37,303 nucleotides of DNA, from the IMG/VR virus record IMGVR_UViG_3300033150_001386, positions 1 to 37,303 of that record; one strand, written 5' to 3'. Positions within the stretch are counted from its first letter, which is position 1, and every line of letters begins with the position of its first letter. The notes below the pieces were generated by a model that did no database searches, was not told the origin of the DNA, and saw nothing but the letters and a program-made list of their open reading frames with translations. The DNA is from a virus. Shown one piece after another: positions 11,693 through 35,930 of this stretch. The translations under genes and the position numbers were made by a program.

Positions 11693-11712
11693 GCTAACTT
11701 GTGAGAACAGTT

Positions 11713-11774: not shown

Positions 11775-11807
11775 GATCGAGGACATTAGGTGATTTTTGG
11801 AGGAAAC

Positions 11808-12497
11808 ATGGTCGGAGGCAAAAAGTCGGAGATTTTGTTGTTTTCTGGCGGATTGGACAGCTTCATACTGTATTTCTATCTCAAGAAGCCACGTACCCTC
11901 TATTTTAACTTGGGACATCGTTACGCGCACAAAGAGCTGGAAGTAGTGTCGAAGCTTATCAAAAATACAGAGGTTGACTTTAGCTACACGCTTACAGATT
12001 GGGAGTTACCAGACGCTCACATTCCGTTTCGGAACGTGCTGTTGGCGATGGGGGCCAGCCGCTATGCTGACATTGTGTATCTTGGAGGAGTGTCTGATGA
12101 TCGTGTGAACGACAATACGAGGGTCGCTCACGCTGATATGACTTCTTTCATTTCCCGTTATGCCGGGCGTTTTGTTAGAGTAGCGGCCCCCTTCGCCGAG
12201 CAGGGTTGGAGCAAATTCGATGCGGTAAGATGGTTCAAGCGGGAGCTTGGAAAGAAGGCAGATAGGCTACTTCTGCAAACGCTCTCATGCTACTCTTCAA
12301 GAAGTGGGCGCTGCATGAAGTGCGCGGCGTGCTTCCGTTGGTGGGTAGCTTTGAAGTGGTGTGGCGTGCAAGGCGTTCCTCAATTTCAGAACGCAACGCA
12401 TGTCGCACGATACGTTGACAAGGTAGAGAGAGGTGAGATTACAGGTGAGAGAGCAAAAGCCATCATAGAAGGAGCGAAAAAATGGATCAACGAGTAA
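11808..12497 (+). CDS. QueC-like PP-loop ATPase (second QueC paralogue)
   Basis: A 229-residue protein with the PP-loop FSGGLDS at 12-18, a YFNLGHRYAHKE segment resembling the QueC strand after the loop, and a C-terminal zinc site of the form C-x7-C-x2-C-x2-C (SCYSSRSGRCMKCAACF). It is more diverged from textbook QueC than the domain in GAT-QueC and lacks the amidotransferase. Start ATG 11808 has GGAGG at 11799-11803. It may make preQ0 while GAT-QueC makes G+, or may have another adenylation role on CDG or a related base. It leads an operon with DpdA 10 bases downstream, so a direct role in the DNA-modification path is likely. Confidence 0.85.
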   Translation: MVGGKKSEILLFSGGLDSFILYFYLKKPRTLYFNLGHRYAHKELEVVSKLIKNTEVDFSYTLTDWELPDAHIPFRNVLLAMGASRYADIVYLGGVSDDRVNDNTRVAHADMTSFISRYAGRFVRVAAPFAEQGWSKFDAVRWFKRELGKKADRLLLQTLSCYSSRSGRCMKCAACFRWWVALKWCGVQGVPQFQNATHVARYVDKVERGEITGERAKAIIEGAKKWINE

Positions 12498-12507
12498 AGG
12501 ATGACTG

Positions 12508-13435: not shown

Positions 13436-13744
13436 ATGGAACGAGTTGTAAGTAGCGACTGTCCGCTGTGCAATCTTGAAAAGAAGACACGATGGTACTA
13501 CGAGGATGACAAGTATGTCGTGTGTGACTGTTTGACATGCAAAGTGCCTATGGTTGTGCTGAAGTCTCATCTGCAGTGCACCTGTCCGACGTGCACCTTT
13601 TGGAAGATGGTTGAGAAAGAAGTGACGGACATCTGTCGCGACTTATTCGGTGACGCTTTTGTCGGATTCAGAAAGGAGCAACGCCAGATCAAGTTTCATT
13701 GGCACTGGCATGTGCTGTTAGGAGGAGAGAATGCAAGAGCTTGA
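13436..13744 (+). CDS. HIT-like zinc protein
   Basis: A 102-residue protein with CPLC at 9-12, a VPMVVLKSH strand-turn at about 37-45, and the C-terminal FHWHWHVLL at 87-95, the His-x-His-x-His signature of HIT nucleotide hydrolases and transferases. Extra cysteines (CDCLTC, CTCPTC) suggest a second metal site. ATG 13436 has GGAAGG at 13425-13430. HIT proteins hydrolyse or transfer nucleoside monophosphates from phosphoester or phosphoramidate bonds. Here it could clean up an adenylylated intermediate from the QueC step; that is inference. The start of the next gene overlaps its end by 14 bases. Confidence 0.75.
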   Translation: MERVVSSDCPLCNLEKKTRWYYEDDKYVVCDCLTCKVPMVVLKSHLQCTCPTCTFWKMVEKEVTDICRDLFGDAFVGFRKEQRQIKFHWHWHVLLGGENARA

Positions 13745-14357
13745 AGAGCTGAAGAGGCGGATTGCGTCAACGCCAGAGACTTTGGTGCTGACAAAGAACA
13801 TCAAGCCGAACAGATGGAACTTCAATGTGCAGAGCGATCGTCTTTTCAACGCGCTGAAGAACGCATTGAAGAAGTTCGGGAAAATTTATCCAGTCATTGT
13901 GAGAGAAACTGGGTCTGGGAAGTACGAGATCATTGATGGAGAGCATCGCTGGAAAGCGCTCCTTCAGTTGAAGGTGAAGTTCACTCCAGTCAAGAATCTC
14001 GGTCGGGTTCCAGACATCCTTGCGAAGGAACTGATGATGATACTCAACAGAACTCGAGGTGAAGCTAACGTGGAAAAGCTGGGACTCTCACTTTCGAGGA
14101 TTGTTCACACAATGGAAGAGGAAGGCGAGAATCCGCTTGATGTCCTTCCGTATGACGAAGAGCAGTTGAAAAGGTTGATCGTGGTGAGTGAGGGCTTTGA
14201 GCCTGAAACTGAAGTCGAGGAAATAGCGCCTGAAGAGTGGAAGGAGATGGCCGAGTCGACTCGTTTGTGCTCAAGACATCAATTCAAGAAAGTCAAAATG
14301 AGGAGATGCAAGAAATGCGGAATCTTAGAAGAATCAAGCAGTCCATCGAGCGAGTAA
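13731..14357 (+). CDS. ParB-like protein with C-terminal zinc-finger tail (first of a tandem pair)
   Basis: A 208-residue protein with a ParB/Srx N-terminal domain: KPNRWNFN near 23-30, a YPVIVRE strand, and the intact box IDGEHRWKA near 65-73. A helical middle follows, and a short C-terminal finger with LCSRH and RRCKKCG cysteines. A GGAGGAG site stands directly before ATG 13731. The next gene is a paralogue with the same order of elements. ParB boxes of this form bind and hydrolyse CTP or act as nucleases; which applies here is unknown. The shared operon with DpdA suggests binding to phage DNA, perhaps to guide or follow modification. Confidence 0.82.
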   Translation: MQELEELKRRIASTPETLVLTKNIKPNRWNFNVQSDRLFNALKNALKKFGKIYPVIVRETGSGKYEIIDGEHRWKALLQLKVKFTPVKNLGRVPDILAKELMMILNRTRGEANVEKLGLSLSRIVHTMEEEGENPLDVLPYDEEQLKRLIVVSEGFEPETEVEEIAPEEWKEMAESTRLCSRHQFKKVKMRRCKKCGILEESSSPSSE

Positions 14358-20714: not shown

Positions 20715-22058
20715 ATGACGAAAGCAAAAGAGAGTGACGCGCTTCAAGAGCTTTGCGAAGTCTCCTGGGAGCCGTTTGAAGTCAAAGAAGAGTTCGATGA
20801 GAAGAGTGGAAAGACGCGTATGCGTGTTGAAGGTGTCATACAGCACGCAGACATCATCAATCAGAACAACAGAATCTATCCGAAGAGTGTGATGGTGAAA
20901 GCTGTCAAAGAGCTTCAGCCCAAGATCGAAGCTGGTCAAGTGTTCGGCGAACTCGATCATCCGACCTTCTACGCGAGCTTGAAGGACACTTCCCACCTCG
21001 TTACAAAAGTGTGGTGGGACGAAAACAATGACAAAGTTCTGCGGGGCGAAATGCTTATTCTGGACACAAAGAACGGGCAGATTCTTCAGGAAATACTGAG
21101 AGCAGGAGGTCGCCCCGGGTTTTCATCTCGTGGAAGAGGCGAACTTGCTAAGAAGAAGGTGAAGGGTGGTGGTGAGGTTTATGTAGTAAAGCCGGGTTTT
21201 AGGTTTTCAAGTTTTGATTTTGTAATCGATCCGTCAGTGAAGTCGGCTCAAATCACTAAGATAATTGAGCAGAATCTTCTCAACAGAACTGATTCTGAGG
21301 AGGAGAGTCACTGCAAAGACGAGTGGTATGAAGACTGCTTCGTTGACGAAACTCCGAAGGAGGAAAAAAGCATGACCAAAAAGAAAGAAGAAGAAGAGAA
21401 GAAAGAACAGACGAGCGCATCTGAGGAGACAGACGACAAAAAGAAGGAAGAGACTGAAACTGAAGTTGAAAAGGGGAAAGAGAAGAAAAAAGAAGGCGAA
21501 CAGGAGGTCGATAAGCTGAAGGCTGAAGTTGAGAAGCTGCGGAAAGAAAAAGCTGATCTCGAATCTCAGATCGCAACGAAGGATGAGCAGATCGAAAAGC
21601 AGTTGAGCGCCTTGTCTGGGGTTGTGGCAGAAGTCGAAAAGATGTCTTCGATCTTGCGGGATGCTGGCTTCATGAAAGCACCCGAAGAGAAGAAGGAAGA
21701 GGAAAAAGAAGAGGAGGAGACCAAACTGGCTGATCTTGAAGCCAAGGTTGAGAATCTTGAGACTGAGCTGAGCGCTACCAAAGAGGAACTCCGCAAGAAA
21801 GAAGTCGAGGCGCACATTGCTAAAGTTCTCGAAGGAGAAGCTTTTGCGGTCGTCTTGAAGGAACGACTGAAAGACTGCAAGACAGTTGAAGAGGTCGACG
21901 CCAGACTCGAGACAGATAGAGCGCTGGTCAAACAAATTCTGACTGAGGGTGAGGTGTTGGCTGCTGGCAAAGGCAGGGTTGTGGTAAAGGGTGAAAGCAA
22001 AATCAAGAAAGATGCCAAAAGGATAGCTGGCATTAGAGAGAAGAAGGAGGAGAAATAA
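20715..22058 (+). CDS. Prohead protease - scaffold fusion (T4 gp21-like protease domain)
   Basis: Residues 1 to about 180 are a T4-type prohead serine protease: IINQNNRIYP near 47-56, ELDHP with His82, the WWDENNDKVLRGEM strand, and GFSSRG with the nucleophile at S137 or S138; an Asp in DFVIDP (168-172) completes the site. The last 250 residues are a Lys/Glu-rich coiled coil typical of scaffold. The protease would cut scaffold and capsid N-termini during maturation. AGGAGG precedes ATG 20715. A strong internal start at 21372 suggests that free scaffold is also made. The gene ends overlapping the capsid start. Confidence 0.9.
   Translation: MTKAKESDALQELCEVSWEPFEVKEEFDEKSGKTRMRVEGVIQHADIINQNNRIYPKSVMVKAVKELQPKIEAGQVFGELDHPTFYASLKDTSHLVTKVWWDENNDKVLRGEMLILDTKNGQILQEILRAGGRPGFSSRGRGELAKKKVKGGGEVYVVKPGFRFSSFDFVIDPSVKSAQITKIIEQNLLNRTDSEEESHCKDEWYEDCFVDETPKEEKSMTKKKEEEEKKEQTSASEETDDKKKEETETEVEKGKEKKKEGEQEVDKLKAEVEKLRKEKADLESQIATKDEQIEKQLSALSGVVAEVEKMSSILRDAGFMKAPEEKKEEEKEEEETKLADLEAKVENLETELSATKEELRKKEVEAHIAKVLEGEAFAVVLKERLKDCKTVEEVDARLETDRALVKQILTEGEVLAAGKGRVVVKGESKIKKDAKRIAGIREKKEEK
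21372..22058 (+). CDS. Nested scaffolding protein (internal in-frame start of the protease gene)
   Basis: AAGGAGG at 21357-21363 stands 8 bases before an in-frame ATG at 21372, exactly where the protease domain ends and the coiled coil begins. Translation from here gives a 228-residue, highly charged helical protein (long Glu/Lys runs, heptads from about residue 45). The lambda C/Nu3 pair is the model: one gene yields protease-scaffold and excess free scaffold. The signal is seen directly; use of the start is inferred. Confidence 0.7.
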   Translation: MTKKKEEEEKKEQTSASEETDDKKKEETETEVEKGKEKKKEGEQEVDKLKAEVEKLRKEKADLESQIATKDEQIEKQLSALSGVVAEVEKMSSILRDAGFMKAPEEKKEEEKEEEETKLADLEAKVENLETELSATKEELRKKEVEAHIAKVLEGEAFAVVLKERLKDCKTVEEVDARLETDRALVKQILTEGEVLAAGKGRVVVKGESKIKKDAKRIAGIREKKEEK

Positions 22059-23182
22059 TGACCTACGACAAATCAATCAGCGAAGTTTTGGAAGAGCAGT
22101 ACGAAGCGCTGACTGAAGACCTCGATCGAGAGGCACGCGAAGAGCCGTTCACCCAGGAGTGGGTTATCGACCGCGCTTTGCAGAACGAGAAGCTATACCT
22201 GTCTGAGCTCGCTGAAGACACCATCAAGAAGGCAGACTTCGCCGTATTCACGACAGTTGCCCTTCCTCTTGTTCGGAAAATCTTCAGTCGTCTCATCGCG
22301 ATGGACCTCGTTTCGGTGCAGCCTATTTCGCAGCCGACAGCAAAAGTCTTCTGGCTCGATTTCACCTGGGGAACGACTGCAGCCGGTGTCACAAAAGGCG
22401 ATAGCGTCTACGACTCCAAACCTACAGCTTACGCAGCGAGGACAACGGAAGGCACCACTCCACGTGATCTGCAGATGAAGCTGACCTCCACCAGCGTAGA
22501 AGCCATTGAGCGAGCTCTCAAAGCTTCGTGGAGCATTGAGTCGCAGCAAGACCTCAAAGCTTACCACGGCTTGAGCATCGAGTCTGAAATTCTCGCAATT
22601 CTTCAAGAAGAGATCGTGAGGGAGATCGACGGTCTGATTCTCGCACAGCTTCTAAGTTGCGCCTCAGCCGGAAACGTCAACTGGGATTGCAACGCTCCGT
22701 CGGACGACAAATCCACCCTCGAAAAGACAGCCTACAAGAAGACGTTGTACGAAGCTATTGTTGACGCCTCGAACCTCATCTACAAAAAGAGGTATCGCTA
22801 CGCTACGTGGATTGTGGGGCATCCTGACGCAATCGTGAGGCTGGAAAAGCTCGAGGAGTTCAAAATTACGCCTTCGGGCACCGCTGGCCCCGCCGCAGAT
22901 CAGTTTACGGTCGGAAGACACCTCATTGGGACTCTCGCTGATCGCTACAAGGTGTACAAAGACCCGTTCTGGCCCGACAGCACGAAGCTCCTGTTGGGAT
23001 ACAAAGGGGCAACTTGGTCAGACACAGTTGGCTATTACGCTCCCTACATCCCTCTGTACACAACTCCAATTCTTGTTGACCCGGACGATTTCACGCCGAG
23101 GAGAGGGCTGTTGAGCAGATTTGCGTACGGCTGCTTGATCTCAGACGGTATGGCTACCGTCACACTGCAGAACGCGAGCTAA
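22058..23182 (+). CDS. Major capsid protein (T4 gp23-like)
   Basis: A 374-residue protein in the canonical position after protease/scaffold. The stretch LPLVRKIFSRLIAMDLVSVQ, followed by PISQPTAKVFWLDF, is the best-known signature of T4-type major capsid proteins. The central Glu-rich helix, the WIVGHPDAI strand and the late GYKGATW and APYIPLYTTP segments agree. It is shorter than T4 gp23 (521), closer to compact members of the group. ATG 22058 overlaps the scaffold stop (TAATG). The N-terminal ~50 residues are acidic and may be cleaved by the prohead protease. A hairpin follows the gene. Confidence 0.92.
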   Translation: MTYDKSISEVLEEQYEALTEDLDREAREEPFTQEWVIDRALQNEKLYLSELAEDTIKKADFAVFTTVALPLVRKIFSRLIAMDLVSVQPISQPTAKVFWLDFTWGTTAAGVTKGDSVYDSKPTAYAARTTEGTTPRDLQMKLTSTSVEAIERALKASWSIESQQDLKAYHGLSIESEILAILQEEIVREIDGLILAQLLSCASAGNVNWDCNAPSDDKSTLEKTAYKKTLYEAIVDASNLIYKKRYRYATWIVGHPDAIVRLEKLEEFKITPSGTAGPAADQFTVGRHLIGTLADRYKVYKDPFWPDSTKLLLGYKGATWSDTVGYYAPYIPLYTTPILVDPDDFTPRRGLLSRFAYGCLISDGMATVTLQNAS

Positions 23183-23219
23183 AGCGACCACGCCTTCTAG
23201 TCACAGATAGAGCGCGAAG

Positions 23220-23250
23220 GAGGGGTGGGCAGCAAGAGCATCCACCCCTC
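23220..23250 (+). terminator. 9-bp hairpin after the major capsid gene
   Basis: GAGGGGTGG (23220-23228) pairs exactly with CCACCCCTC (23242-23250) around a 13-base loop, 38 bases after the capsid stop. The following TACTCC lacks a T run, so it may be a weak or factor-dependent terminator, or an mRNA stabiliser that keeps capsid mRNA abundant. It marks the border between the head module and the glycosylation island. Confidence 0.6.
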
Positions 23251-23285
23251 TACTCCGCTCGGGTATTGGTATGAGGTGAAAAACA

Positions 23286-24260
23286 ATGGGTGTGTACTAC
23301 CAAGGGTCGAACGTGGCTCAGCTTTTCTACACTTCTGAGAGGGAAGTTGTTACGATTTACCCGCGATTTCTGGTAGATGACGCTGACTTTAGCATATCAG
23401 CTCTCACAAAGGTTGAAGACGTTTTCAGATTTTTGGACGAGAGCAAGTGTAAACGGCTTGTCGTTGCAAGACACTACGCACTTGGCGACTTGTTGCTTTT
23501 GATTCCTGTGCTTCGACTTCTCAAAACGAAGCTTTACTACCCACATATCACACTTGTTACGCATCCACGCTTTGTGGAACACTACATACTCAAAACACTC
23601 GGCAAAGGGGTCTATGATGCTTTCGCGACTGATGACGCCTTGGCACGGAATCAAGTTAAGTACGACGTTGGTGTGCATCTATCTGGTGTGCTGGAACGTG
23701 ACCACACACAAGAGCCGTACCAGACAACTCATCGAGTACAGATTTTCCTCGACTGGTTTGGGCTCGACGAGAGTGTAAGTTGGGAGACAGAGCTTTCATG
23801 GAAGAAAAGTGACTACGTTGTACTGCAGACTGGAGGAAGCCATAGACACAAAGAGTTGCCAATTGAAACACGTGAGCACCTCGTGAAGAGACTGCAGAAG
23901 GAGAAGCTGAAGGTGAGGTGTGTGGGCAATGGACATTGGGTAAGCGATGAGAAGTTTCTCAATCTGATCGGTTCGGCGAGATGTCTTATCACTATGGACA
24001 GTGCTCCTTTGTGGATTTCACACTTTACAAAGACGCCGACGGTGCTCATACTCGGCCCTACTCGACACACTGAACGACTGACGATGCATCCACTCTACAG
24101 TAAGGGCAAAGCCGCTTTCGTTGCGTTGAACGAGGAGATTGGATGTGAGAGTTGTTTCGAACGTATCGGGAAGTGCGGAGGAAGGATTGACTGCTTCAAT
24201 GTTGATAAGGGACTCGTCGTGCGGCGAGTTTTGGACGCAGTAAGGAGAGTGACAGCATGA
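23286..24260 (+). CDS. Glycosyltransferase, GT9-like (heptosyltransferase fold)
   Basis: A 324-residue GT-B enzyme. The N-terminal RHYALGDLLLLIPVLRLLK matches the GD-x-x-x-x-P-x-L motif of ADP-heptose:LPS heptosyltransferases, and the C-terminal ITMDSAPLWISH and TVLILGPTRH segments match the second GT9 half, with Cys clusters (CESC, CGGRIDC) near the end. The sugar donor is unknown. ATG 23286 has GAGGTG upstream. Its N-terminal 30 residues weakly resemble the N-terminal module of the next gene (Q-x-x-Y and a later V-x-x-x-P). The stop overlaps the next start. Confidence 0.85.
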   Translation: MGVYYQGSNVAQLFYTSEREVVTIYPRFLVDDADFSISALTKVEDVFRFLDESKCKRLVVARHYALGDLLLLIPVLRLLKTKLYYPHITLVTHPRFVEHYILKTLGKGVYDAFATDDALARNQVKYDVGVHLSGVLERDHTQEPYQTTHRVQIFLDWFGLDESVSWETELSWKKSDYVVLQTGGSHRHKELPIETREHLVKRLQKEKLKVRCVGNGHWVSDEKFLNLIGSARCLITMDSAPLWISHFTKTPTVLILGPTRHTERLTMHPLYSKGKAAFVALNEEIGCESCFERIGKCGGRIDCFNVDKGLVVRRVLDAVRRVTA

Positions 24261-27067
24261 AAGACCCGCTTTTCGGCCCCGGTTCTGTCTTCTTGCTGAA
24301 GAAGCATTTTGAGGTGCCGATAAATGACACTGGTGTTGATCAGATTTTTTACGACTCTCAACGTAACCCTGTTGTTGTACGCCCCGGTGAGCCGATGTAT
24401 CAGAAACTGCGCCAACAGTTCAAGCTGTCTGACTACTTTATCAGCAGTGATCTGTGGGAGGCACAACGCAAGTTGGAAGAGATGCGGAGGAAATGGGGGT
24501 GCAGTGGAAAGAAGCTCAAGCTTGCATTGCGTAATGACGCACCTGGAATCGGCGATATGGTGATGGCGACTTGCATTCCGAAAGCGTTCAAAGAGGCGTT
24601 CGGAAAAGATGTCATCATAACCGTCTTCACAACGGACACGCTGAAGGAAGTGCTTTATGGGAATCCCTACATCGATGAAGTCTCAACAAGACTTCAAGAC
24701 TGCACATCAGCCGCGTTTGATTTGCTCTTAAACGTCAACGAGATGGAGTTGAAATGCGAACCTCGTTGGCATGAGGTCGGTCTGAAGCATAAGCGGAATC
24801 GAACAGCTGTCTTGCTGAGTGAGCTGGGGTTGTGGCTTATCAACAAGACGCCTGTCTATGTTGTAAGTGAGAAGGAGAAGAAGTGGGCAAAGAGACAGCT
24901 TGCGCAGCGAAAGCTGCTTCACAAATCCCCAATAGTAGGAGTGAGCTTGTGCTCTTCTGCCAAAGCCCGAACCTATGCTCACATAGCGGAAGTCGTCAAA
25001 CTGTTGAAGAAGAAAGGGTACAGTGTTGTACTTCTGGACGAGAAAGACTCCGAAGGACGATACGTCTACTCAATCCGGGAAGTGGCAGCCCTCATCAATG
25101 AGTGCGATGTGGTTGTCGCTCCCGACTCAGCGTTACTCCACATTGCTGGTGCACTCAAGAAGAGAATTGTGGGACTTTTTGGGCATACTGACGGGCGTAT
25201 CTTTTGCGAAGACTATGAGAAGGCGTCGGTGCTTCAGGGAACGTGTCCGCTGAAGCGACGGAGCGAGCCGTGTTGGTGGAAGCTGGAGTGTGTGGAGGGT
25301 GGTAAGACGTATCGAGAGCGAAGCAACTTTGGATTTGTGTCGTGTTTGTCGAACATCAAGCCGAACGAAGTTGTCAAGACGGTTGAGAAGCAGCTTCGAG
25401 AGCCAAGTCGGATACTCATCGCGCTTCTAACGTACAACAATCTTGTGATGACAAAGAAAGCATACGAGTCGATTCGCTCTTGGCACAACTACGACGTGTT
25501 CGTGATTGACAATAAGAGCACAGACGGTACAACGAAGTGGCTGAAAGAAATAGGGGTTGAATTTGTGTCAAAGAAGTCGTCTGTGGCTGAAGCTCAAAAC
25601 ATCGCGATCAAGAAGGCGCTGGAAGGTGATTACGACTTTCTTCTGCTTCTAAACAACGATCTGGTGCTAAGAGCAGATTACATCGATGAGATAGTAGCTG
25701 AGGCGAAGGCTACTGGGGCACAGGCGATGGCGGGGACTGTTCTCGCCAAGACACCTCCGTGGGATGTTGATGAGGCGATCGAGTTTGAGAAAGGACACAA
25801 CGAAGAAGTGGTCGATTTGATAGCAGGCGACTTTTCGGCGACTCTCCTCTCTCGGGAGTGTCTTGAGAAGGTTGGGTTTTTTGACGAGCAGTTTACGCCT
25901 CGTTACATTGAAGACAATGACTACATTCTGCGGTTACGACTTGGAGGCGGAAAGTTCTTACGCACTTCTTCCGCTCAGTACTACCACTGTCTTGGGGCTG
26001 TCATACGTACGCTGGAAGATGAGAAAAAGTTGCATGAAGAGCGTTGGAACAAGAACATCGCCAAGTTTGAAGCAAAGTGGGGCATCCATCCACACTCTCC
26101 TCAGGTGCTCCAGCGACTTGGGTTGGAGTGGTTTAGTCGAGTTCGCGGCGTTAAGGTGATAGACGCTATAGAGGAAGCGTTGGGAGGAGGAAAGAGCGGT
26201 CGTATTTTAGTACAGCGCTCAATGGGAGGCTATGGAGATATTATCTTCTCTACTGTTATCGGTAGAGCTTTGAAGGAGCGATATAAAGAGCGGGTGCATA
26301 TACACTATTCTGTTCCTCAAGAGTTCGTCCCTTTGTTGCGTTCCTATCCTTACATCGACTCCGCGTCTTCTGTTGAAGAAACTGTAGGGAGCTTCCTTTT
26401 TACGATCGACATCACGGATTTGGAGTTTCGCGTCGAGCTTCAAGAAATAAGCAAGCACGGAGAGGTGAAAACACCGCGTTCCAAAATTTACCTCGATGTC
26501 TTGGGAGTCGAGGGAGACATCAAGCCTGAGTATTTCCCCACCAAAGAAGAACTTCAGTGGGCAGAAAATGAGTGGGGAGAAAGCGATGGCGCACATCGTG
26601 TAGTCGTCGTTCTGAAGGGTAGCAACAAGCTGAAGGAGTGGCCGGGTATGCCCAAAGTCGTAGAACGGCTCAGAAGCTCTGGTCAGAACGTAAAGGTGCT
26701 GGATGAAGGCGGGAAGTATGCCCACACTTTCAGAGAGGCGTGCGCTCTTGTAGCCAGGGCGGATGTAGTCATATCGCCAGACAGCGGCATATCCAACGCA
26801 GCTGCGGCTCTGAACGTTCCGACTGTCACTATCTTCAGCAATAGGAACGGCAAGGTCTTTGCCAAGATGTTCGAAAGTATGATTCCTGTCCAGGGCAGCT
26901 GTCCGTACTTGGAAGAGGGTTACTGCGACTTTAAGGTGCCGTGTTTCGGCACTGGCCCGCATAGAGCCAAGGAGAACATTGATATCCCTATGTGCTTGAA
27001 GGGATTGTCCGTAGATAGAGTCTACTCAGAGGCGCAGAAAGTGCTTCACAGCGAGGTGAACAAATGA
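24257..27067 (+). CDS. Trimodular glycosyltransferase GT9 - GT2 - GT9
   Basis: A 936-residue protein with three glycosyltransferase modules. Residues about 1-55 are a small N-terminal module shared with the 32313 gene. Residues about 85-380 are GT9-like (APGIGDMVMATCIPKAF; VAPDSALLHIAGAL). Residues about 385-640 are GT2, with ALLTYNN, the acceptor-nucleotide segment VIDNKSTDG, and NND near 466 in the DXD position. Residues about 647-936 are a second GT9-like unit (SMGGYGDIIFSTVIG; ISPDSGISNAAAAL). The architecture would allow one protein to add several sugars in order. Its donors and acceptor are unknown; virion protein or host surface glycan are both possible. It starts by overlapping the previous stop. 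Confidence 0.87.
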   Translation: MKDPLFGPGSVFLLKKHFEVPINDTGVDQIFYDSQRNPVVVRPGEPMYQKLRQQFKLSDYFISSDLWEAQRKLEEMRRKWGCSGKKLKLALRNDAPGIGDMVMATCIPKAFKEAFGKDVIITVFTTDTLKEVLYGNPYIDEVSTRLQDCTSAAFDLLLNVNEMELKCEPRWHEVGLKHKRNRTAVLLSELGLWLINKTPVYVVSEKEKKWAKRQLAQRKLLHKSPIVGVSLCSSAKARTYAHIAEVVKLLKKKGYSVVLLDEKDSEGRYVYSIREVAALINECDVVVAPDSALLHIAGALKKRIVGLFGHTDGRIFCEDYEKASVLQGTCPLKRRSEPCWWKLECVEGGKTYRERSNFGFVSCLSNIKPNEVVKTVEKQLREPSRILIALLTYNNLVMTKKAYESIRSWHNYDVFVIDNKSTDGTTKWLKEIGVEFVSKKSSVAEAQNIAIKKALEGDYDFLLLLNNDLVLRADYIDEIVAEAKATGAQAMAGTVLAKTPPWDVDEAIEFEKGHNEEVVDLIAGDFSATLLSRECLEKVGFFDEQFTPRYIEDNDYILRLRLGGGKFLRTSSAQYYHCLGAVIRTLEDEKKLHEERWNKNIAKFEAKWGIHPHSPQVLQRLGLEWFSRVRGVKVIDAIEEALGGGKSGRILVQRSMGGYGDIIFSTVIGRALKERYKERVHIHYSVPQEFVPLLRSYPYIDSASSVEETVGSFLFTIDITDLEFRVELQEISKHGEVKTPRSKIYLDVLGVEGDIKPEYFPTKEELQWAENEWGESDGAHRVVVVLKGSNKLKEWPGMPKVVERLRSSGQNVKVLDEGGKYAHTFREACALVARADVVISPDSGISNAAAALNVPTVTIFSNRNGKVFAKMFESMIPVQGSCPYLEEGYCDFKVPCFGTGPHRAKENIDIPMCLKGLSVDRVYSEAQKVLHSEVNK

Positions 27068-27663
27068 CGAAGAAAGTGCCTCCTCCGCCCACCTTTTCGG
27101 AGATGGGGATGGACAGAGTGGAGAACGAGTTCTTCAAATTCAAGAATTTTATGGATGAAGTGGGCGAGGAGTTTTTCTTGGTGGCGGGCGTGTGCTTGGG
27201 GCTTGTAAGAGACGGTGGACTGATTGAGTATGACAAGGATTTCGATATTGGGGTGATGAACGAGGGGAGCTTGTACGCGATAGCGCAAGCGGCACGATCA
27301 TTTGCTTACTACGAGGAGATTCATATCACAGAGTGGGAGAAAGGAAAGATTTGCTGGCTGAAGAAGCGTCTCGGTGAGTATGTTTTGCCGATCGAAATAA
27401 TAGCGCATTACGAGAGAGGCGAGTACATTTACTACAATCGAGACCTCGGACCGACGTGGAGGTACAGAAAAGGCAGAGTGGTCTATAACAAAAGGCTGTT
27501 CGATGCCTTTGAGAAAGTCAGCTTTAGGGGCGTCGATTTTAACGTCCCCTCTCCGGTTGCTGAATATCTGACTGCTTTCTTCGGTGACGATTGGGAGACG
27601 CCGAGGAAGTACACTGATTGGAGATATAACTGCAAGAATTTGTACAAGGGCTGGTGGGTGTGA
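27064..27663 (+). CDS. LicD/fukutin-like nucleotidyltransferase-fold protein
   Basis: A 199-residue protein with the LicD pattern: VAGVCLGLVRDGGLIEYDKD followed by FDIGV near residues 41-65, where the Asp residues bind metal, and the C-terminal PVAEYLTAFFGDDWETP segment. LicD enzymes transfer phosphocholine or related groups to cell-surface glycans, and fukutin relatives transfer ribitol phosphate. A TagD-like cytidylyltransferase encoded 1.1 kb downstream would make a matching CDP-activated donor. It overlaps the stop of the preceding gene and has GAGGTGA upstream. Confidence 0.84.
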   Translation: MTKKVPPPPTFSEMGMDRVENEFFKFKNFMDEVGEEFFLVAGVCLGLVRDGGLIEYDKDFDIGVMNEGSLYAIAQAARSFAYYEEIHITEWEKGKICWLKKRLGEYVLPIEIIAHYERGEYIYYNRDLGPTWRYRKGRVVYNKRLFDAFEKVSFRGVDFNVPSPVAEYLTAFFGDDWETPRKYTDWRYNCKNLYKGWWV

Positions 27664-28328
27664 AGAAGGTTGTCTTAATTGCAGGTGCTTCACGCGGAAT
27701 CGGTAGACATCTGTCTGAGTTTCTGCGGAAAGATTTTTTGGTCGGAGTGTGCAGTAGAACCTCGAAACGGGCAGATTGTGATGACTTTTTCTCTCGAAAG
27801 TGCGATTTGACGAAGCGTGGCGATGCGAAATTGCTGATCGACGCTGCGTTAGAGAAGTTCGGTCGGGTAGATGCAGTGATTTACAACGCGGGACTGATGC
27901 TTTACGACGATTTGCTTCATGCAAAGGAAAAGGACCTCGATGCAACCTACGAAATTACTGTGAAGGGATATCTGTTCCTCTGCCAAGAAGTTCTCCCCGT
28001 AATGAGGATGCAGGGGCACGGTCATATCATAAATATTTCATCAACTCGGGGAATCACCGTCGCTCCAAACAAAGGCGTTTACTCAGCTATGAAGCGAGCC
28101 GCAACGTCTTTGACGGATTCTGTGCGGATAGAGAATGCGCAGTACGGAATCAAAGCCACGTCGGTTCATTTTGGGATCGTCGATACTGATTCAAGTCGAG
28201 AAAGATACGGAGACGAGCTGCGGAGACTGAATCCTGTCAGCTTGGAATGCGTGCTTGAGACGATCAGGTTTTTGCTGTTATTCGAGGAGGTTCGCATCGA
28301 CTCGTTGATTGTCGGAGGCAAGCTTTGA
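27660..28328 (+). CDS. Short-chain dehydrogenase/reductase
   Basis: A 222-residue SDR with the cofactor loop GASRGIG near residue 9, the NAG motif near 80, Ser in NISSTRG near 125, and the catalytic YSAMK near 141-145. GTG 27660 is preferred because AAGGG is 9 bases upstream; GTG 27654 is an alternative two codons earlier. It overlaps the licD-like stop. The likely role is oxidoreduction of a sugar or polyol for the surface-glycan path. Confidence 0.88.
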   Translation: MKKVVLIAGASRGIGRHLSEFLRKDFLVGVCSRTSKRADCDDFFSRKCDLTKRGDAKLLIDAALEKFGRVDAVIYNAGLMLYDDLLHAKEKDLDATYEITVKGYLFLCQEVLPVMRMQGHGHIINISSTRGITVAPNKGVYSAMKRAATSLTDSVRIENAQYGIKATSVHFGIVDTDSSRERYGDELRRLNPVSLECVLETIRFLLLFEEVRIDSLIVGGKL

Positions 28329-28819
28329 ACAAGTTGGAGATAAACCCGAAGAGCGATCTGGTGTTCGACTTGAAAGTCAGGGAGATGTGCAGGTCTTGCA
28401 AACGGTACGGGCAGAAAGCGACTTGTCCGCCACACATTGAGTCGGTCGGGTACTACGAGAAGTTGCTCTCTCAATTTGCGCACGGTGTTCTTTACTTCGA
28501 GAAATTCACCCTAACTGACGACGACTTCGCGAGGTGGAGAGAATTGGGAGCGGAGAGCAGTTTGAAGATGCACAGAGAGATTCTGTCAGAAAGAGACAGA
28601 TTGCTTAACGAAGGGCATTATTTCGTTGTGGGATTTGGCGCTGGTTCGTGCAAGTTGTGCGACAAGTGTACAATCCCTTGCAGTGCTCCCCAGAAATCTC
28701 TAGTTCCTCTTGAAGGAGCTGGAGTCGATGTGGTGAAAACTCTGAAGCGGTTCAACACTGAACTAAAATTCCCTGTCAGAGAACGTTTTTACAGGGTGGG
28801 AGCGCTATTCTATGACTAA
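28325..28819 (+). CDS. DUF2284-like metal-binding protein
   Basis: A 164-residue protein with CRSCKRYGQKATCPPH at about 21-36 and GAGSCKLCDKC near 105-115, matching the predicted metal-binding DUF2284 family. Start TTG 28325 overlaps the SDR stop and has GGAGG at 28314-28318. Members are often found beside redox or corrinoid enzymes in bacteria, so its presence in a phage glycan cluster is unusual. It might bind an Fe-S cluster or a corrinoid and support the radical SAM step at 31204; this is only a guess from context. Confidence 0.75.
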   Translation: MNKLEINPKSDLVFDLKVREMCRSCKRYGQKATCPPHIESVGYYEKLLSQFAHGVLYFEKFTLTDDDFARWRELGAESSLKMHREILSERDRLLNEGHYFVVGFGAGSCKLCDKCTIPCSAPQKSLVPLEGAGVDVVKTLKRFNTELKFPVRERFYRVGALFYD

Positions 28820-29240
28820 AAAGAAGATTGTTTACGCTCAGGGTACATGGGATTTGTTCCACATTGGGCACGTGAACATACTGCAGAGAGCTCGCAAGAT
28901 GGCAACCAGATTGATCGTCGGCGTGAACACGGATGAGTCTGTGAAGAAGTATAAGGGCAGCTATCCCGTAATTCCCTATCAAGATCGTGTGGCGATGTTG
29001 GAGGCTTGTCGATTCGTGGATGAAGTGATAGAGAGCGATTTGAGCTTCAATGTTGCCGTCTTGAAGGAGCGCGCAGTCGACATCATTGTTTTGGGCAGTG
29101 ACTGGGAGGGCAAGTATCTGGCTGGAAAAGAGGAGGCTCAAGAAGAGGGCATTGAGGTTGTGTATTTCCCGTATACCGAGGGCGTCAGTACGACCGAAAT
29201 CAAGAACAAGATCAAAAGAAGCTGGCGATGGAGGGAATGA
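28812..29240 (+). CDS. TagD-like cytidylyltransferase
   Basis: A 142-residue nucleotidyltransferase with the GTWDLFHIGHVNIL segment containing the HxGH motif near residues 17-20, and the second signature YTEGVSTTEIKNKI near 119-132. It closely follows glycerol-3-phosphate cytidylyltransferase (TagD) and related enzymes that make CDP-glycerol, CDP-ethanolamine or similar donors. It overlaps the preceding gene by 8 bases. It is likely to supply a CDP-linked donor for the LicD-like protein. Confidence 0.9.
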   Translation: MTKKKIVYAQGTWDLFHIGHVNILQRARKMATRLIVGVNTDESVKKYKGSYPVIPYQDRVAMLEACRFVDEVIESDLSFNVAVLKERAVDIIVLGSDWEGKYLAGKEEAQEEGIEVVYFPYTEGVSTTEIKNKIKRSWRWRE

Positions 29241-30166
29241 TGAGAGTGTTCGTGACTGGTGGTGCAGGCTTTGTGGGGAGTGTGCTTGTGCCGATGATGC
29301 TTGACAGGGGTTGGAGAGTGCGCGTGTACGACAACTTGTTGTACGGCGTTCGGGGACTCTTGTCGTGCTTCCTTCGAAAAGACTTTGAGTTGGTGAAGGG
29401 AGACGTGCGAAATAAGAAGCAACTGCAAAAAGCGGTCGAGGGGTGTGACGCAGTTGTGCATTTGGCGGCGCTTGTGGGATACCCTGTCTGTAAGAAGGAT
29501 GAGAACGCCGCAGTAACGACCAACGTTGGAGGAACAGTTGCGTTGTGCGAAGCCCTCGATGAGAAGACTCCTCTCGTTTTTGCTTCGACAGGAAGTTGTT
29601 ACGGCAATCTTGAGGGCGTGTGCAAAGAGGAGCTTCCGCTCAAACCTTTGACGATCTACGGACAGACGAAGGCTCTTGCAGAAGAGGCAGTGATGCAGCG
29701 AAACAACTACGTCATCTACAGATTCGCTACGGGATACGGCGTATCTTCTCGATTGAGGCTTGATCTGCTTATCAACGACTTCTGCTACAAAGCTGTAAGA
29801 GAGCACAATCTCATTGTGTATGAAAGACACTTTCAGCGCACATTCATACACGTGCAGGATATGGCTAGAGCCTTCATGTTTGCGCTTGAAAACTTTGACA
29901 GAATGAAGGGCGAAGTGTACAACGTAGGCTCTGAGGACATGAATCTGACAAAGCAGTATGTCGCAGAGTTCATCAGGGAGAGAGTCCCTTTCTATCTGCA
30001 CTACGCTGATGTTGGGCACGATGAGGATAGGCGTGATTATGCAGTGTCTTACAAGAAGATTCGCGAAGTTGGATGGAGCGCGAAAACCACGCTTGAAGAG
30101 GGAGTTGAACAATTGATCAACCTCTTCAGAGTTTTCAGAGTCGAACATGATTACACCAATGTGTAA
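29240..30166 (+). CDS. NAD-dependent sugar epimerase/dehydratase
   Basis: A 308-residue extended SDR with GGAGFVGS near residue 7 (GxxGxxG), the HLAALVGYP strand, Ser in STGSCYGN, and the catalytic YGQTK near 139-143. ATG 29240 is chosen for its spacing from GGAGGG at 29230-29235; ATG 29237 is also possible. It probably acts on an NDP-sugar; epimerase, dehydratase or reductase activity cannot be told apart by eye. Its stop is followed by a 26-base gap before the next gene. Confidence 0.88.
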   Translation: MRVFVTGGAGFVGSVLVPMMLDRGWRVRVYDNLLYGVRGLLSCFLRKDFELVKGDVRNKKQLQKAVEGCDAVVHLAALVGYPVCKKDENAAVTTNVGGTVALCEALDEKTPLVFASTGSCYGNLEGVCKEELPLKPLTIYGQTKALAEEAVMQRNNYVIYRFATGYGVSSRLRLDLLINDFCYKAVREHNLIVYERHFQRTFIHVQDMARAFMFALENFDRMKGEVYNVGSEDMNLTKQYVAEFIRERVPFYLHYADVGHDEDRRDYAVSYKKIREVGWSAKTTLEEGVEQLINLFRVFRVEHDYTNV

Positions 30167-30192: not shown

Positions 30193-31125
30193 ATGTTGAA
30201 ACTTGAAGACAAACATGTCTTGGTGACTGGCGGTTCTGGCTTTTTGGGCAGACAGATCGTCGAGAAACTGCGTAAGCGGGGAACGAGAGTTTCCGTCGTA
30301 CGAAAGCGCGTCTTCGATTTGACGAGTCCGAATCAAGCCTTGATGTGCATGTCTTCTTTTAAGCCGGATGTCGTCATACATTGTGCGGCTTTCTATGGAG
30401 GGCTGGGCATCAACAGGAAGTACCCAGGGCAGATTTACTACGAGAATCTGTTGATGGGGGCCAACGTAATCGAAGCGTGCCGTCAGCATGACGTTGAGAA
30501 GTTTGTGGGAGTCGGGACTGCATGTTCCTATCCCGGCTATCTGGAAGGGGAGTTGAGGGAGGAGGATTTGTGGGGCGGCCCCTGTCATGAGTCCGTCAGA
30601 TGCTACGGTATGACGAAGAAGATGATGCAAATTCAGTGTGAAGCTTACAACAAGCAGTGGGGCTTTAACGGGATTCACCTTCTTTTGGCGAATCTCTATG
30701 GAGAGTGGGACTCCTACAACCCCGAACGTTCGCATGTAGTGGCGGCACTGATACGTAAGTTTGTCGAAGCGAAGATGAACAACGCAAGTGAAGTTGTTGT
30801 CTGGGGTACGGGAAAGCCTATTCGCGAATTTCTGTATGTTGGTGATGCCGCTGACGCTATAATAGAAGCGACACGATGCTACGACGACGTTCGCCCGCTC
30901 AATGTCGGCACTGGGGTCGGTACGTCGATAAGAGAGCTTGTAGAACTTATCTGCGAACTTTCTGGCTTTAAAGGGAAAGTTGTTTGGGACTCGTCAAAAC
31001 CTGATGGGCAGGCGAAGAAAGTGTTCGATGTTTCGAGGATCACGTCGCTTTTCTGGAAGCCCAAGACGACTGTTCGATGTTTCGAGGATCACGTCGCTTT
31101 TCTGGAAGCCCAAGACGACCCTTAG
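30193..31125 (+). CDS. GDP-L-fucose synthase-like reductase, C-terminus altered by a frameshifting duplication
   Basis: A 310-residue extended SDR with GGSGFLGR near 14, an AAFYGGLGINRKYPGQ segment, VGTACSYPGYLEGE and catalytic YGMTK, the pattern of GDP-4-keto-6-deoxymannose epimerase-reductase (Fcl). A perfect 49-bp tandem repeat (31022-31070, 31071-31119) near the end shifts the frame by one. Removing one copy restores a 316-residue protein ending at 31192 with the family-typical end LRQGLQKTIRWFEQN. As the sequence stands, the last 23 residues are replaced by 17 unrelated ones. The catalytic core is intact, but the lost end normally helps fold the substrate domain, so activity is doubtful. 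A sequencing or assembly error is possible. Confidence 0.86.
   Translation: MLKLEDKHVLVTGGSGFLGRQIVEKLRKRGTRVSVVRKRVFDLTSPNQALMCMSSFKPDVVIHCAAFYGGLGINRKYPGQIYYENLLMGANVIEACRQHDVEKFVGVGTACSYPGYLEGELREEDLWGGPCHESVRCYGMTKKMMQIQCEAYNKQWGFNGIHLLLANLYGEWDSYNPERSHVVAALIRKFVEAKMNNASEVVVWGTGKPIREFLYVGDAADAIIEATRCYDDVRPLNVGTGVGTSIRELVELICELSGFKGKVVWDSSKPDGQAKKVFDVSRITSLFWKPKTTVRCFEDHVAFLEAQDDP
31022..31119. repeat. 49-bp perfect tandem duplication
   Basis: Bases 31022-31070 and 31071-31119 are identical, beginning TGTTCGATGTTTCG and ending CCCAAGACGAC. The unit is not a multiple of three. The sequence after the second copy continues the ancestral reading frame to a stop at 31192, 11 bases before the next ATG, which is normal spacing in this operon. 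A recent slippage event is therefore likely. Confidence 0.95.
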
Positions 31126-31203: not shown

Positions 31204-32271
31204 ATGTGGAAAGAGTGGCTCAATCGCTATAATCCTTACAACCCGATGAAGGCACTCTACTGGCAGAAAAGACTGGAGCAGATAGCGCAAGGAGAGATTC
31301 CTGTGCCGATTACTGTTTGGGTCGACCCCGCAAACCTCTGTCAGGCAAACTGCTTTTGGTGTCAGTTTCGGGAGTATCGTCGTACAAAGCCCGTGACGAT
31401 GACTGCAAGTGTGTTGCTTTCGCTTCCTAAATCTCTGGAAGAGTGGGGTGTCGAGGGTGTTGTTGTTGGAGGCGCTGGTGAGCCGTTGATGCACCCGAAG
31501 ATTGTCGAATTTCTCGAAGCGCTAAAGCAGACTCGTCTATCAGTAGCTTTGGAGACGAACGGAATCAAGTTGCGGGATGAGAAGATACGAGCGGCTGTGA
31601 TCGACAGTTGCTCTTGGGTGAGAATCTCACTGGATGCAGCAACACCAAGAACGTATCTCAAAGTGAAGAAGGCGCTCGTCGGCAGCTTTCAGAAGGTTTT
31701 GGATGGGGTCGGCTTGCTAGTTAGAGAGCGGAATGGAAAGTGTCCAAAGATCACGCTTACCTTCTTGATTCACCACACTAACTACGGAGAAATGTATCAG
31801 TTTGCTGATATGGCGAAGAGCTTCAAAGTTGACGAAGTGCACTTTCGTCCTGTCTATCTTAGAAACTATCGCTTCACATCTGGATTGAGAGGAACTTCTG
31901 AGTGGCATTTGCGAGAGTCAAGAAAGGAGCTTGAGGGCGACGATTTCCACATCTATGGGATCGTGCACAAGTTTGATAGAGAGTGGCAGCGAGCGATACG
32001 CTTCAAGCAGTGCTACGCTACCCCACTTGTCGGAGCTTTTGGAGCTGATCAAATCTTCTACATGTGTCCTGACAGACGAGGGGATGACCTACTAAACTTG
32101 GGGAAGTTTCACCCGTTTGAGAAGTTTCTTGCTCGCTGGGGTTCTGATGAGCATAAGGATAAGATTAGTCGCATCTCACCCCCAGCATGTCCTCGTTGTA
32201 CACAGTGTATTACGAACGAGATAATCGAGCGTGTTGTACTTAAAGGTGAGATGATGCTAAAGTTTGTGTAA
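31204..32271 (+). CDS. Radical SAM enzyme in the glycan island
   Basis: A 355-residue radical SAM protein with the cluster motif CQANCFWC near residues 41-48, VVGGAGEPLMHP as the GGEP-like box near 93-104, and RISLDAATP as the following strand. The C-terminal CPRCTQCITN segment suggests an auxiliary cluster in a SPASM/twitch-like tail. ATG 31204 has GGGAGGAG upstream. Close relatives of this type are often annotated near polysaccharide genes. Its substrate could be a sugar nucleotide or a peptide; it closes the island. Confidence 0.85.
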   Translation: MWKEWLNRYNPYNPMKALYWQKRLEQIAQGEIPVPITVWVDPANLCQANCFWCQFREYRRTKPVTMTASVLLSLPKSLEEWGVEGVVVGGAGEPLMHPKIVEFLEALKQTRLSVALETNGIKLRDEKIRAAVIDSCSWVRISLDAATPRTYLKVKKALVGSFQKVLDGVGLLVRERNGKCPKITLTFLIHHTNYGEMYQFADMAKSFKVDEVHFRPVYLRNYRFTSGLRGTSEWHLRESRKELEGDDFHIYGIVHKFDREWQRAIRFKQCYATPLVGAFGADQIFYMCPDRRGDDLLNLGKFHPFEKFLARWGSDEHKDKISRISPPACPRCTQCITNEIIERVVLKGEMMLKFV

Positions 32272-32312: not shown

Positions 32313-32609
32313 ATGTCGGTCGAAACTGAAGCTTATGAGATTTATGATGAGGAGTTCGTTAACAACACAAAGGTTGAGCAGGTCATCTACGACTGCTACG
32401 GAAATCCGATTCATGTGATGCCTGGAGAGAAGGCGACTTACAAACAGCGCAGGCGAATTCCTACCAAACACCTAAAGGAAATGTTGGAAAGGGAGGCCAA
32501 TGTCTCTAGACAAGACAACACTAAGGGATCGAGTGCGCAAAATCGTCGGGAACCCAAAGAAGAGCCAACCAGAAGAACTTTCAGACGCTTCAATCGAAGA
32601 CGAACTTGA
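32313..32609 (+). CDS. Small protein sharing the N-terminal module of the trimodular glycosyltransferase
   Basis: A 98-residue protein starting at ATG 32313 with GAGGAGGT at 32298-32305. Residues 19-39 match residues 25-45 of the 24257 protein at 11 of 21 positions without gaps (T, V, Q, YD, NP, V, PGE). The C-terminal third is basic, Arg-rich and disordered, and overlaps the next gene by 110 bases in a different frame. I do not recognise a named family. The shared piece might be a small virion- or partner-binding domain. Confidence 0.68.
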   Translation: MSVETEAYEIYDEEFVNNTKVEQVIYDCYGNPIHVMPGEKATYKQRRRIPTKHLKEMLEREANVSRQDNTKGSSAQNRREPKEEPTRRTFRRFNRRRT

Positions 32610-33198
32610 TGCGTCTTTGAGGCTGCTCGACAAGTACGTTCCTGATTGGAGGCTGTACTACATCACAACGCAAGATGATGTGCAGAGCTACACACCCGAA
32701 TCCGGAGTGACGCAAATTCTGCAAGTTTACTGGTTTGGCACGTCAACCGTTTCGGACGTTTTCGGGGAGGAGTTTGACGTTCTGTTTGGCATCCCGCTGT
32801 ATGACGTTGAAACGGGATACTACGATTGGTGTGTAGACTGGCTGGAGAAGCAGCAAGCTTTGCGGCGATACGACTGGGAGTATAATCCAGGAGAGAACAA
32901 GCTCTACCTGATTCCAGAGCCGGAGGCGGACGACAAGAAGGTGTACTACATTGGAGCGAAACCCTGGACATGGGACAGCATACCGTCGGGAAGACAAGAT
33001 GTCATCGTGCGCTACGCAGTCTCTCAGTGTTTGAAGATTTTGGGGCGGACGAGAGCAAAACTTTCTGGGGTGCAACGTGCGGGAGGCTTGATTGATTATG
33101 GAGCCGTAGACGGACTGACGAAGGACGGAAGGTTAGAAGAAGAAGCAGTAGTTCGCGATCTAGAGGCTGAATCCCAACGCTGGATGATATTACTCTAA
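32500..33198 (+). CDS. Head-tail connector-type protein
   Basis: A 232-residue protein with an N-terminal helical segment (TTLRDRVRKIVG, then LDASLRLLDKYVPDW), a beta-rich middle and a C-terminal helix with RYAVSQCLKILG. This plan resembles phage head-completion and adaptor proteins of the gp6/gp15 type, which follow the capsid gene and contact the portal. GGGAGG at 32489-32494 supports ATG 32500. Its stop overlaps the next start (TAATG). The specific connector class is uncertain. Confidence 0.72.
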   Translation: MSLDKTTLRDRVRKIVGNPKKSQPEELSDASIEDELDASLRLLDKYVPDWRLYYITTQDDVQSYTPESGVTQILQVYWFGTSTVSDVFGEEFDVLFGIPLYDVETGYYDWCVDWLEKQQALRRYDWEYNPGENKLYLIPEPEADDKKVYYIGAKPWTWDSIPSGRQDVIVRYAVSQCLKILGRTRAKLSGVQRAGGLIDYGAVDGLTKDGRLEEEAVVRDLEAESQRWMILL

Positions 33199-34769: not shown

Positions 34770-35930
34770 ATGAAAGTCTTCTCACTTGCGAATGAAGAAG
34801 AAATCTATGTGAAGAAAGAAAGCACTGAAGGGACTCTTGTTTACCCCACTGCGACTGACTACCTGCTGGCTGTGGGCGTTTCGGCGTTCGGACAGGATGT
34901 CGAGTTCATCGACGACGAGCAGATTCGTGGAGGCAGAAGCCGACTGTCGCCGATCAAAGGGCGTGTGCATCCGGGCAACTGGAGCTTTACCACCTATGTT
35001 AAGCCCAGTGGGACCAAAGGGACCGCTCCGGAAGCGGATGTGCTTTTCGAATGTCTGCTCGGCAAGAAAGTTGTGAATGCGGGAACGTCTGTTGTCTACA
35101 GTCTCGACTCCGATATCAACCTTCCTTCGTTCTCTTTGTGGGTAAAGAAGGGACACACTGCTTTCGCTATGGCAGGATGCACAGTTAACGTGGGCGAGTT
35201 CACCATTTCTGGAAGTGAGATCGGACAGATTGCGTGGAGCGGACAGTTCATGAAGTGGTACGAGGCTGGCTCCGCAAAGCTGACTCAGGCTGTCAATCCG
35301 TCTGATACTACGTGTGTCGTTGATAAAGCAGAGCGATTCTCGGATGAGAAGATCAAGATCAAATTCACGAACGACGACAACGGCGGCAACGGCTACACGA
35401 TCACGAGTATCGACTACACTACAAACACAATCACCTTTACGCCTGGTTATGCTGGCTCTGGAGAGAGCGCAGGCGACTGGGTTCTTCCTTGGTGGCCCAC
35501 GTCTGGAACTGAAGTTGGAACGCCAGTTCACGGAAAGTTGGGTATCTGCAAAATCGAAAATGTCGACACCAAAGTCCTCAGTTCCACAATCACGATCACC
35601 AACAACATCAAGTACTACGAAGACGAGAAGAACGGACAGTTGTACGCGACCACGTACGAAGCTATCGGGTGGAGAGATGTCAACGGAACCCTGACTCTCT
35701 TCTTTTACAAGGGAGCGAAGGGCTATTTCTACCGAGCTGAGAATCAAGTTCAGAACGCGCTGATCGTTCCATGCGGCGACACGGCGGGCAAGATCATGGA
35801 GATTTCGTGTCCGCAGATTGAGTACAGAACGCCCACTTTGTCTGGAGACGAAGAGATCATCATGGAGCTTCCTTTCATAGCTGTTGGCACAGCTGCCCAA
35901 GACGACGAGATAACAATTACGTTCAAATAA
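34770..35930 (+). CDS. Major tail tube protein
   Basis: A 386-residue beta-rich protein. The N-terminal part has EEEIYVKKESTEGT and the later DDEQIRGGRSRLSPIKGR segment, followed by GNWSFTTYVKPSG, as in siphovirus major tail proteins that open with a loop, an Arg-Gly-rich strand and a Trp-Ser-Phe strand. The length is about twice that of minimal tube proteins, and the extra central domain (about 180-260, Thr/Gly-rich) may be a surface-exposed decoration. It has AGGAGG before the ATG. It is expected to be made in large amount. Confidence 0.8.
   Translation: MKVFSLANEEEIYVKKESTEGTLVYPTATDYLLAVGVSAFGQDVEFIDDEQIRGGRSRLSPIKGRVHPGNWSFTTYVKPSGTKGTAPEADVLFECLLGKKVVNAGTSVVYSLDSDINLPSFSLWVKKGHTAFAMAGCTVNVGEFTISGSEIGQIAWSGQFMKWYEAGSAKLTQAVNPSDTTCVVDKAERFSDEKIKIKFTNDDNGGNGYTITSIDYTTNTITFTPGYAGSGESAGDWVLPWWPTSGTEVGTPVHGKLGICKIENVDTKVLSSTITITNNIKYYEDEKNGQLYATTYEAIGWRDVNGTLTLFFYKGAKGYFYRAENQVQNALIVPCGDTAGKIMEISCPQIEYRTPTLSGDEEIIMELPFIAVGTAAQDDEITITFK

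Follow-up and report, generated by a model that had tools for sequence, protein, structure and literature searches.

A GT9-GT2-GT9 glycosyltransferase fusion and its GT9 partner beside the capsid gene of a metagenomic virus lineage: a candidate locus for virion-head glycosylation

The A111/114R protein of the chlorovirus PBCV-1, found in all chloroviruses, carries three glycosyltransferase (GT) domains of about 300 amino acids each and is assigned to the synthesis of the capsid-protein glycan core (PMC7826918). As far as the citing papers tell, mycobacteriophages bear glycans on capsid and tail-tube proteins and encode glycosyltransferases themselves (Freeman 2023, cited in PMC11256854 and PMC12619734). 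In the protein O-heptosyltransferase TibC activity depends on four cysteines, which bind iron, and on an N-terminal beta domain, with Asp110 as candidate catalytic base (PMC4358343). Here we analyse IMG/VR record IMGVR_UViG_3300033150_001386, whose positions 1 to 37,303, referred to in full as the window, derive from a virus of bacteria or archaea belonging to a lineage known from metagenome records only. Its head gene block encodes a GT9-GT2-GT9 fusion protein (24257..27067) directly preceded by a stand-alone GT9-like enzyme, designated GT0 (23286..24260), and the two constitute a conserved gene pair. We propose, with a probability of roughly 0.58, that this pair synthesises a short glycan attached to the virion head, GT0 starting and the fusion extending it. 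All genes, modules and the hairpin described below between positions 20715 and 33198 lie on the plus strand.

Modules and active sites of the fusion and of GT0

The open reading frame (ORF) of the fusion starts with ATG and encodes 936 amino acids (P0001) free of internal stops, while the opposite strand contains many. Pfam family GT9 (PF01075) matches the protein in three stretches with 82.8 bits (cut-off 22) and GT2 (PF00535) matches residues 390-502 with 39.2 bits (cut-off 23.3). In an AlphaFold2 model built with ten relatives (mean predicted local distance difference test, pLDDT, 80.0; predicted template modelling score, pTM, 0.65) residues 87-385 resemble WaaF (1psw, Z 21.9), residues ~383-628 GT-A enzymes (Z ~19) and residues 631-935 the GT9 structure 3tov (Z 22.4), so that the predicted folds follow the order GT-B, GT-A, GT-B; profile searches of solved-structure sequences returned the same GT families. 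The first-pass annotation of this DNA had read three GT modules on one chain and had proposed structure prediction as a check; ORF, Pfam scores and folds now agree with it.

By fold and conservation, module 1 (GT9) spans residues 83-382 (24503..25402) and contains GD99-100, D290 and H295 as well as C330, C339, C345 and C363. The GT2 module, also delimited by Pfam, comprises residues 383-622 (25403..26122) with D418, NND466-468, D553, D555 and H577, its base region PRYIEDND corresponding to residues 548-555, while module 2 (GT9) extends over residues 645-936 (26189..27064) with GD660-661, D842, N847 at the position of a histidine, and C882, C890, C896 and C913. The N-terminal region ahead of these modules (residues 1-82; 24257..24502) is modelled at low confidence (pLDDT 33-73 up to residue 80) and harbours, at about residues 26-47, a QxFYDxxxxPxxVxPGE beta motif recognised by a motif hidden Markov model (HMM) and by profile comparison.

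Conservation of the active sites was read over 19 diverged fusion relatives. G99, D100, H295, the module-1 cysteines, D418, N419, N466-N467-D468, D553 and D555 are invariant in all of them, and G660, D661, D842, N847 and the module-2 cysteines wherever module 2 is present. Hence the GD motifs of both GT9 parts and the NND motif of the GT2 part, recorded at first pass, are retained throughout, and a degeneration of the active sites, the finding that was to speak against the earlier claim, is not seen. Within the D-x-x-x-x-H element of module 1 the histidine is invariant, D290 being exchanged for asparagine in 5 of the 19 fusions. Curated score, GT-B fold and an N-terminal GD with the catalytic aspartate place the outer modules in GT9; curated score, GT-A fold, NND as a DxD-type motif and the catalytic ED region place the central one in GT2. 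Sequence and model thus support three modules that look active on one chain, and the addition of several sugars in a fixed order, as suggested at first pass, is a plausible prediction from the module layout.

The lipopolysaccharide (LPS) heptosyltransferase equivalogs TIGR02195, TIGR02193 and TIGR02201 are not reached, the scores amounting to 82.4, 62.5 and 48.9 bits versus cut-offs of 134.6, 185.3 and 170.2. A fucosyltransferase function of the GT2 module was considered as the GDP-fucose-dependent WrtF is the top GT-A match (Z 19.2) and one of the neighbouring genes codes for a GDP-fucose-synthase relative; yet further GT-A enzymes score within 1 Z of WrtF and, therefore, no donor is assigned to this module.

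GT0, whose gene lies between that of the major capsid protein (MCP) and the fusion and overlaps the start of the latter by 4 bp, consists of 324 amino acids and is a diverged GT9 enzyme, weakly recognised by sequence (E 0.008). Its model is of high confidence (pLDDT 92.8, pTM 0.92) and, together with conservation, reveals the N-terminal beta motif, GD67-68 and the cysteines C287, C290, C297 and C303; four cysteines near the C-terminus are conserved in all three GT9 domains, i.e. in GT0, module 1 and module 2. The top Foldseek match of GT0 is TibC (template modelling score 0.63 by query length), while comparison with GT9-fold enzymes yields Z values of 17-19. TibC is the sole one of the leading GT9-fold matches whose alignment extends into the N-terminal beta region, the strands of GT0 being aligned from residue 6 onwards.

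Position beside the capsid gene and a shared N-terminal motif

Upstream of the pair, PHROGs assigns a head maturation protease (phrog_207; 20715..22058) and the T4-gp23-type MCP (phrog_138; 22058..23182), the latter with matches in 2504 phage records. We scanned IMG/VR with fusion, GT0 and MCP profiles and ranked 39 distinct MCPs by profile score. A GT9 gene is present at most 1.1 kb downstream of all 22 MCPs scoring above 450 bits; of these 22, 16 possess the full GT9-GT2-GT9 gene and 3 a GT9-GT2 gene (627-644 amino acids), and in 3 the fusion gene is cut off by the contig end. Module 2 is wholly absent in three relatives (L015, L037, L079). Behind the next three MCPs (335-384 bits) GT0 occurs alone and behind one further MCP (277 bits) a GT0 relative is found at 784 bp; for the other distant MCPs of the 39 no GT9 was found within 5 kb or up to the contig end. 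In contig L078 a GT9-motif-GT9-GT2 arrangement in 997 amino acids comes after GT0. This ORF (L078:2046-5039) comprises a GT0-like GT9, the N-terminal motif in internal position, a GT9 and a GT2 and thus differs in module order. The parts of the locus look modular, the stand-alone enzyme being the most widely kept, and the module chain may have grown stepwise. Divergence is correlated between MCP and GT0 (Mantel r 0.72) and between MCP and fusion (0.45), values reached in 0 of 2000 permutations.

The first-pass annotation had placed the fusion between capsid and connector genes and called it unusual for a phage. The position holds, yet the fusion does not stand alone, as GT0 precedes and seven genes follow it, and the connector is identified by position only: the protein concerned (32500..33198) is syntenic in relatives and has no PHROGs name. 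Rarity is borne out for isolated phages insofar as neither fusion nor GT0 finds a match in 50,697 phage records; within the metagenome lineage, however, a GT9 gene beside the MCP gene is the rule (22 of 22), and viral multi-GT chains are known (PMC7826918, BFVD). A blastn comparison of the pair from contig L018 with phage records yielded no relative. In cellular genomes solely the GT2 part was matched among the matches listed, and a GT9-like profile hit was obtained in 0 of 80 cellular loci kept. In the T4-type phages whose annotated MCPs are nearest (Microcystis Mel-JY01, Flavobacterium immuto) no GT is annotated beside the MCP gene.

The motif Q-x-[FI]-Y-D-x-x-x-N-P-x-x-V-x-P-G-E occurs in the N-terminal region of the fusion, at the beginning of GT0 and in a small protein (32313..32609; KVEQVIYDCYGNPIHVMPGE) encoded just before, and overlapping, the neck/connector-position gene, an arrangement recurring in many relatives. 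The small protein gives nothing significant in Pfam or PHROGs. Its likeness to the enzymes was recognised by motif HMM and profile comparison, with hhalign probabilities of 95 for small protein and fusion, 87.5 for small protein and GT0, and 95 for GT0 and fusion, compared to a maximum of 36 among 33 control windows. Column shuffles remained below the motif score save one value, which did not recur in 150 repeat shuffles and which we regard as an artefact. In the 5-kb contig L039 the small motif protein follows the MCP directly and no GT was found there. A 226-amino-acid protein encoded upstream of the protease gene in L005 (L005:2378-3058) carries the motif at its start (IRQVRYDQYGIPHMAEPGE). 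Judged from sequence, the shared motif may serve docking, convergence of a short hairpin being a possible alternative origin.

A strong hairpin (23219..23251; gap z -3.2 against shuffles) occupies the gap between the MCP and GT0 genes (23183-23285). Its stem-loop sequence is not conserved among relatives; low folding energy was obtained for the gap in all 19 relatives folded, and 5 of 6 shuffle-tested gaps gave z values from -3 to -7. The stem-loop is perhaps a leaky terminator lowering GT expression relative to MCP. Scans for promoter and terminator consensus sequences remained at chance level.

The sugar-gene cassette and other genes of the window

Together with seven sugar or accessory genes the pair makes up a cassette of ~9 kb. 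The first of these genes encodes a LicD-family, phospho-alcohol transferase-like protein (27064..27663; Pfam 31.3 bits, cut-off 22.6), the second an SDR-family reductase (27654..28328; domain search) and the third a DUF2284 predicted metal-binding protein (28325..28819; 97.9 bits). In L020 relatives of the LicD and SDR proteins are fused within one 425-amino-acid ORF (L020:5056-6333), which suggests that the two act together; the DUF2284 protein adjoins the cytidylyltransferase in L019 and L020, too. This cytidylyltransferase (28812..29240) had received an HldE-like name from PHROGs, which we discarded, as in the PDB comparison it is nearer to CTP:phospho-alcohol enzymes (best match ethanolamine-phosphate cytidylyltransferase, 111 bits; glycerol-3-phosphate cytidylyltransferase, 87 bits). 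Therefore, an ADP-heptose pathway, i.e. a heptose-biosynthesis operon, is unsupported in the window.

The following NAD sugar-nucleotide enzyme (29228..30166) has its best PDB match in 6vo6 (282 bits; next 102), which we take to be Campylobacter jejuni Cj1427. Cj1427 is a GDP-heptose C4-dehydrogenase (PMC10680097), and the C4-reductases of its GDP-heptose pathway resemble GDP-fucose synthase (PMC10680097, PMC7949155). A protein of the GDP-L-fucose synthase/C4-reductase family is encoded next (30193..31125; PDB comparison). The 3' end of its gene is altered by a perfect 49-bp tandem duplication (31022-31119), either a real change or an assembly artefact; the protein has 310 amino acids in the window and 316 in the near-identical contig L003, which contains a single 49-bp copy. 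A radical SAM protein (31204..32271; domain search) completes the cassette. While the pair is kept, size and content of the cassette vary among relatives; that of L005, read from translations, includes sulfotransferase-like, sulfatase-like and methyltransferase-like ORFs.

Elsewhere, the region 4811-13419 contains genes of the 7-deazaguanine type, which encode a radical SAM protein, the GTP cyclohydrolase I FolE, a fusion of QueC with a glutamine-amidotransferase-like part, a TGT-like protein and an AdoMet_dc-domain protein. Two ParB_N-domain proteins (3658-4293 and 13731-14357) are encoded in this one phage fragment.

Alternative explanations and likeness to known systems

We favour a virion-head glycan because the catalytic columns are invariant and the folds are those of GT-B, GT-A and GT-B enzymes, because the GT9 gene follows the MCP gene in 22 of 22 cases with correlated MCP-GT0 divergence, because the top match of GT0 is a protein O-heptosyltransferase, because both enzymes have an N-terminal motif that resembles the small pre-neck protein, because the downstream sugar genes vary while the pair stays, and because the mycobacteriophage glycans, as far as they are described in the citing papers, set a precedent. 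GT0 would place the initial sugar on a protein of the head, the MCP or a head-associated protein being the most likely acceptor, and the fusion would lengthen the glycan by up to three sugars, one per module. The downstream cassette would supply or decorate sugars, its Cj1427-like and Fcl-like enzymes providing a modified GDP-heptose or GDP-6-deoxyhexose and LicD adding a phospho-alcohol group taken from a donor activated with CDP. What we infer is the acceptor, the donors, the sequence in which the sugars are added and a docking function of the motif. More tentatively, the small head-protein motif may have been copied to the N-termini of both enzymes to dock them on the prohead or MCP, a growing fused chain (GT9, GT9-GT2, GT9-GT2-GT9) writing a lineage-specific glycan with sugars from an exchangeable cassette at a fixed place of the head operon.

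Several points weigh against a virion-head glycan. The glycan, its donors and its acceptor are predicted from genes and models. A correlation of divergence is what linked inheritance would produce, adjacency to the MCP gene could be plain linkage within a late operon, and the shared motif covers 22-36 aligned columns only. GT9 resemblance extends to LPS heptosyltransferases as well as to protein ones, and the NCBIfam model of TibC/AAH (BAHT), TIGR04414, yields 17.8 bits versus a cut-off of 200 and matches at all in 1 of 10 fusion members and 1 of 9 GT0 members; TibC is therefore a likeness and no family assignment. In the D-x-x-x-x-H element of module 2 the aspartate is invariant, but N847 replaces the histidine of WaaC and WaaF and is conserved as asparagine in all relatives possessing this module. 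Considered together with the relatives devoid of module 2, this gives some substance to the possible, though not favoured, view that merely some modules are active, module 2 representing e.g. a scaffold or acceptor-binding part, and that fewer than three sugars are added; the invariant GD (660-661; catalytic base), D842 and four cysteines of module 2 speak against it, and it would be compatible with a head target.

That GT9 is the family of LPS heptosyltransferases and that Cj1427-like, Fcl-like and LicD proteins are similar to enzymes which decorate capsule and LPS (PMC10680097) would suit a locus whose products alter the surface of the infected host (LPS core, O-antigen or capsule), for instance to block superinfection or re-binding of virions to debris. 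We regard this as rather unlikely, given that the genes reside inside the head block, directly after the MCP gene in all close relatives, that the motif is common to a head-region protein and that a non-exhaustive look at the annotated cassette genes revealed no flippase, polymerase or lipid-carrier glycosyltransferase. Modification of tail or fibre proteins instead of the head, altering adsorption, appears somewhat less probable still: tail and neck genes do come after the cassette (34770-35930, phrog_290), and tail-tube glycans are known in mycobacteriophages as far as PMC12619734 relates them, yet it is the MCP gene, and not a tail gene, that lies nearest to the pair and accompanies it most constantly. 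Least probable of all is an action of the transferases on the phage DNA, in which they would add sugars to modified bases. The window does hold the 7-deazaguanine (preQ0) type genes FolE, QueC and TGT-like, and phage glycosyltransferases acting in DNA hypermodification are reported (Pyle 2024, as cited in PMC12619734). We nevertheless judge this explanation less likely because few of the relatives that carry the pair have 7-deazaguanine genes: among 10 contigs with pair or fusion, relatives of FolE and QueC were detected in 3 and a TGT-like gene in 0, the latter in a search without positive control and both in records that are possibly fragments. In addition, proteins and LPS are the acceptors of the nearest relatives by fold.

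Should the pair indeed glycosylate the virion head, a whole tailed-phage lineage would keep a glycan-building locus within its head gene block, like the capsid-glycan enzymes of chloroviruses, and virion glycosylation would be a heritable, evolving phage trait rather than an occasional accessory, which could bear on encounters of the particle with antibodies, host defences and cell debris. The shared motif offers a directly testable route by which an enzyme may be directed to a capsid.

Compared to described systems, the fusion shares with A111/114R three GT domains on one virus-encoded chain (PMC7826918); the latter, however, belongs to a eukaryotic algal virus, its domains are assigned as galactosyl-, xylosyl- and fucosyltransferases, and the likeness drawn here concerns the domain layout. 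With TibC/AAH (BAHT; PDB 4rap/4rb4) the pair has in common the GT-B fold and an early catalytic aspartate, and its N-terminal beta strands and four conserved cysteines may correspond to the N-terminal beta domain and the four-cysteine finger of TibC, beta barrel and metal being putative in the pair; in contrast, those enzymes are single-module, differ in finger spacing and act on autotransporters, no gene for which was noticed in the window. WaaC and WaaF resemble the fusion in Pfam GT9 membership and in fold (Z 18-22 for the GT9 modules), whereas the fusion has a fused GT2, is located in a phage head block and reaches no NCBIfam equivalog cut-off. The transferases of mycobacteriophage Maravista, likened here by description, lie near the genome 3' end and, in the accounts concerned, are not described beside the MCP gene. 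Top BFVD matches are large viral chains annotated as glycosyltransferases, such as the 924-amino-acid A0A6J5SVC1 ('Aah/TibC') of an uncultured Caudovirales phage, whose full-chain template modelling score to the fusion is low (0.23). Viral chains with three GT domains and glycosylated phage capsids are thus already known; judged by the open-access literature, the GT9-GT2-GT9 order, the lineage-wide place adjacent to the MCP gene and next to a GT9 partner, an exchangeable cassette and a motif common to a head-region protein are apparently new.

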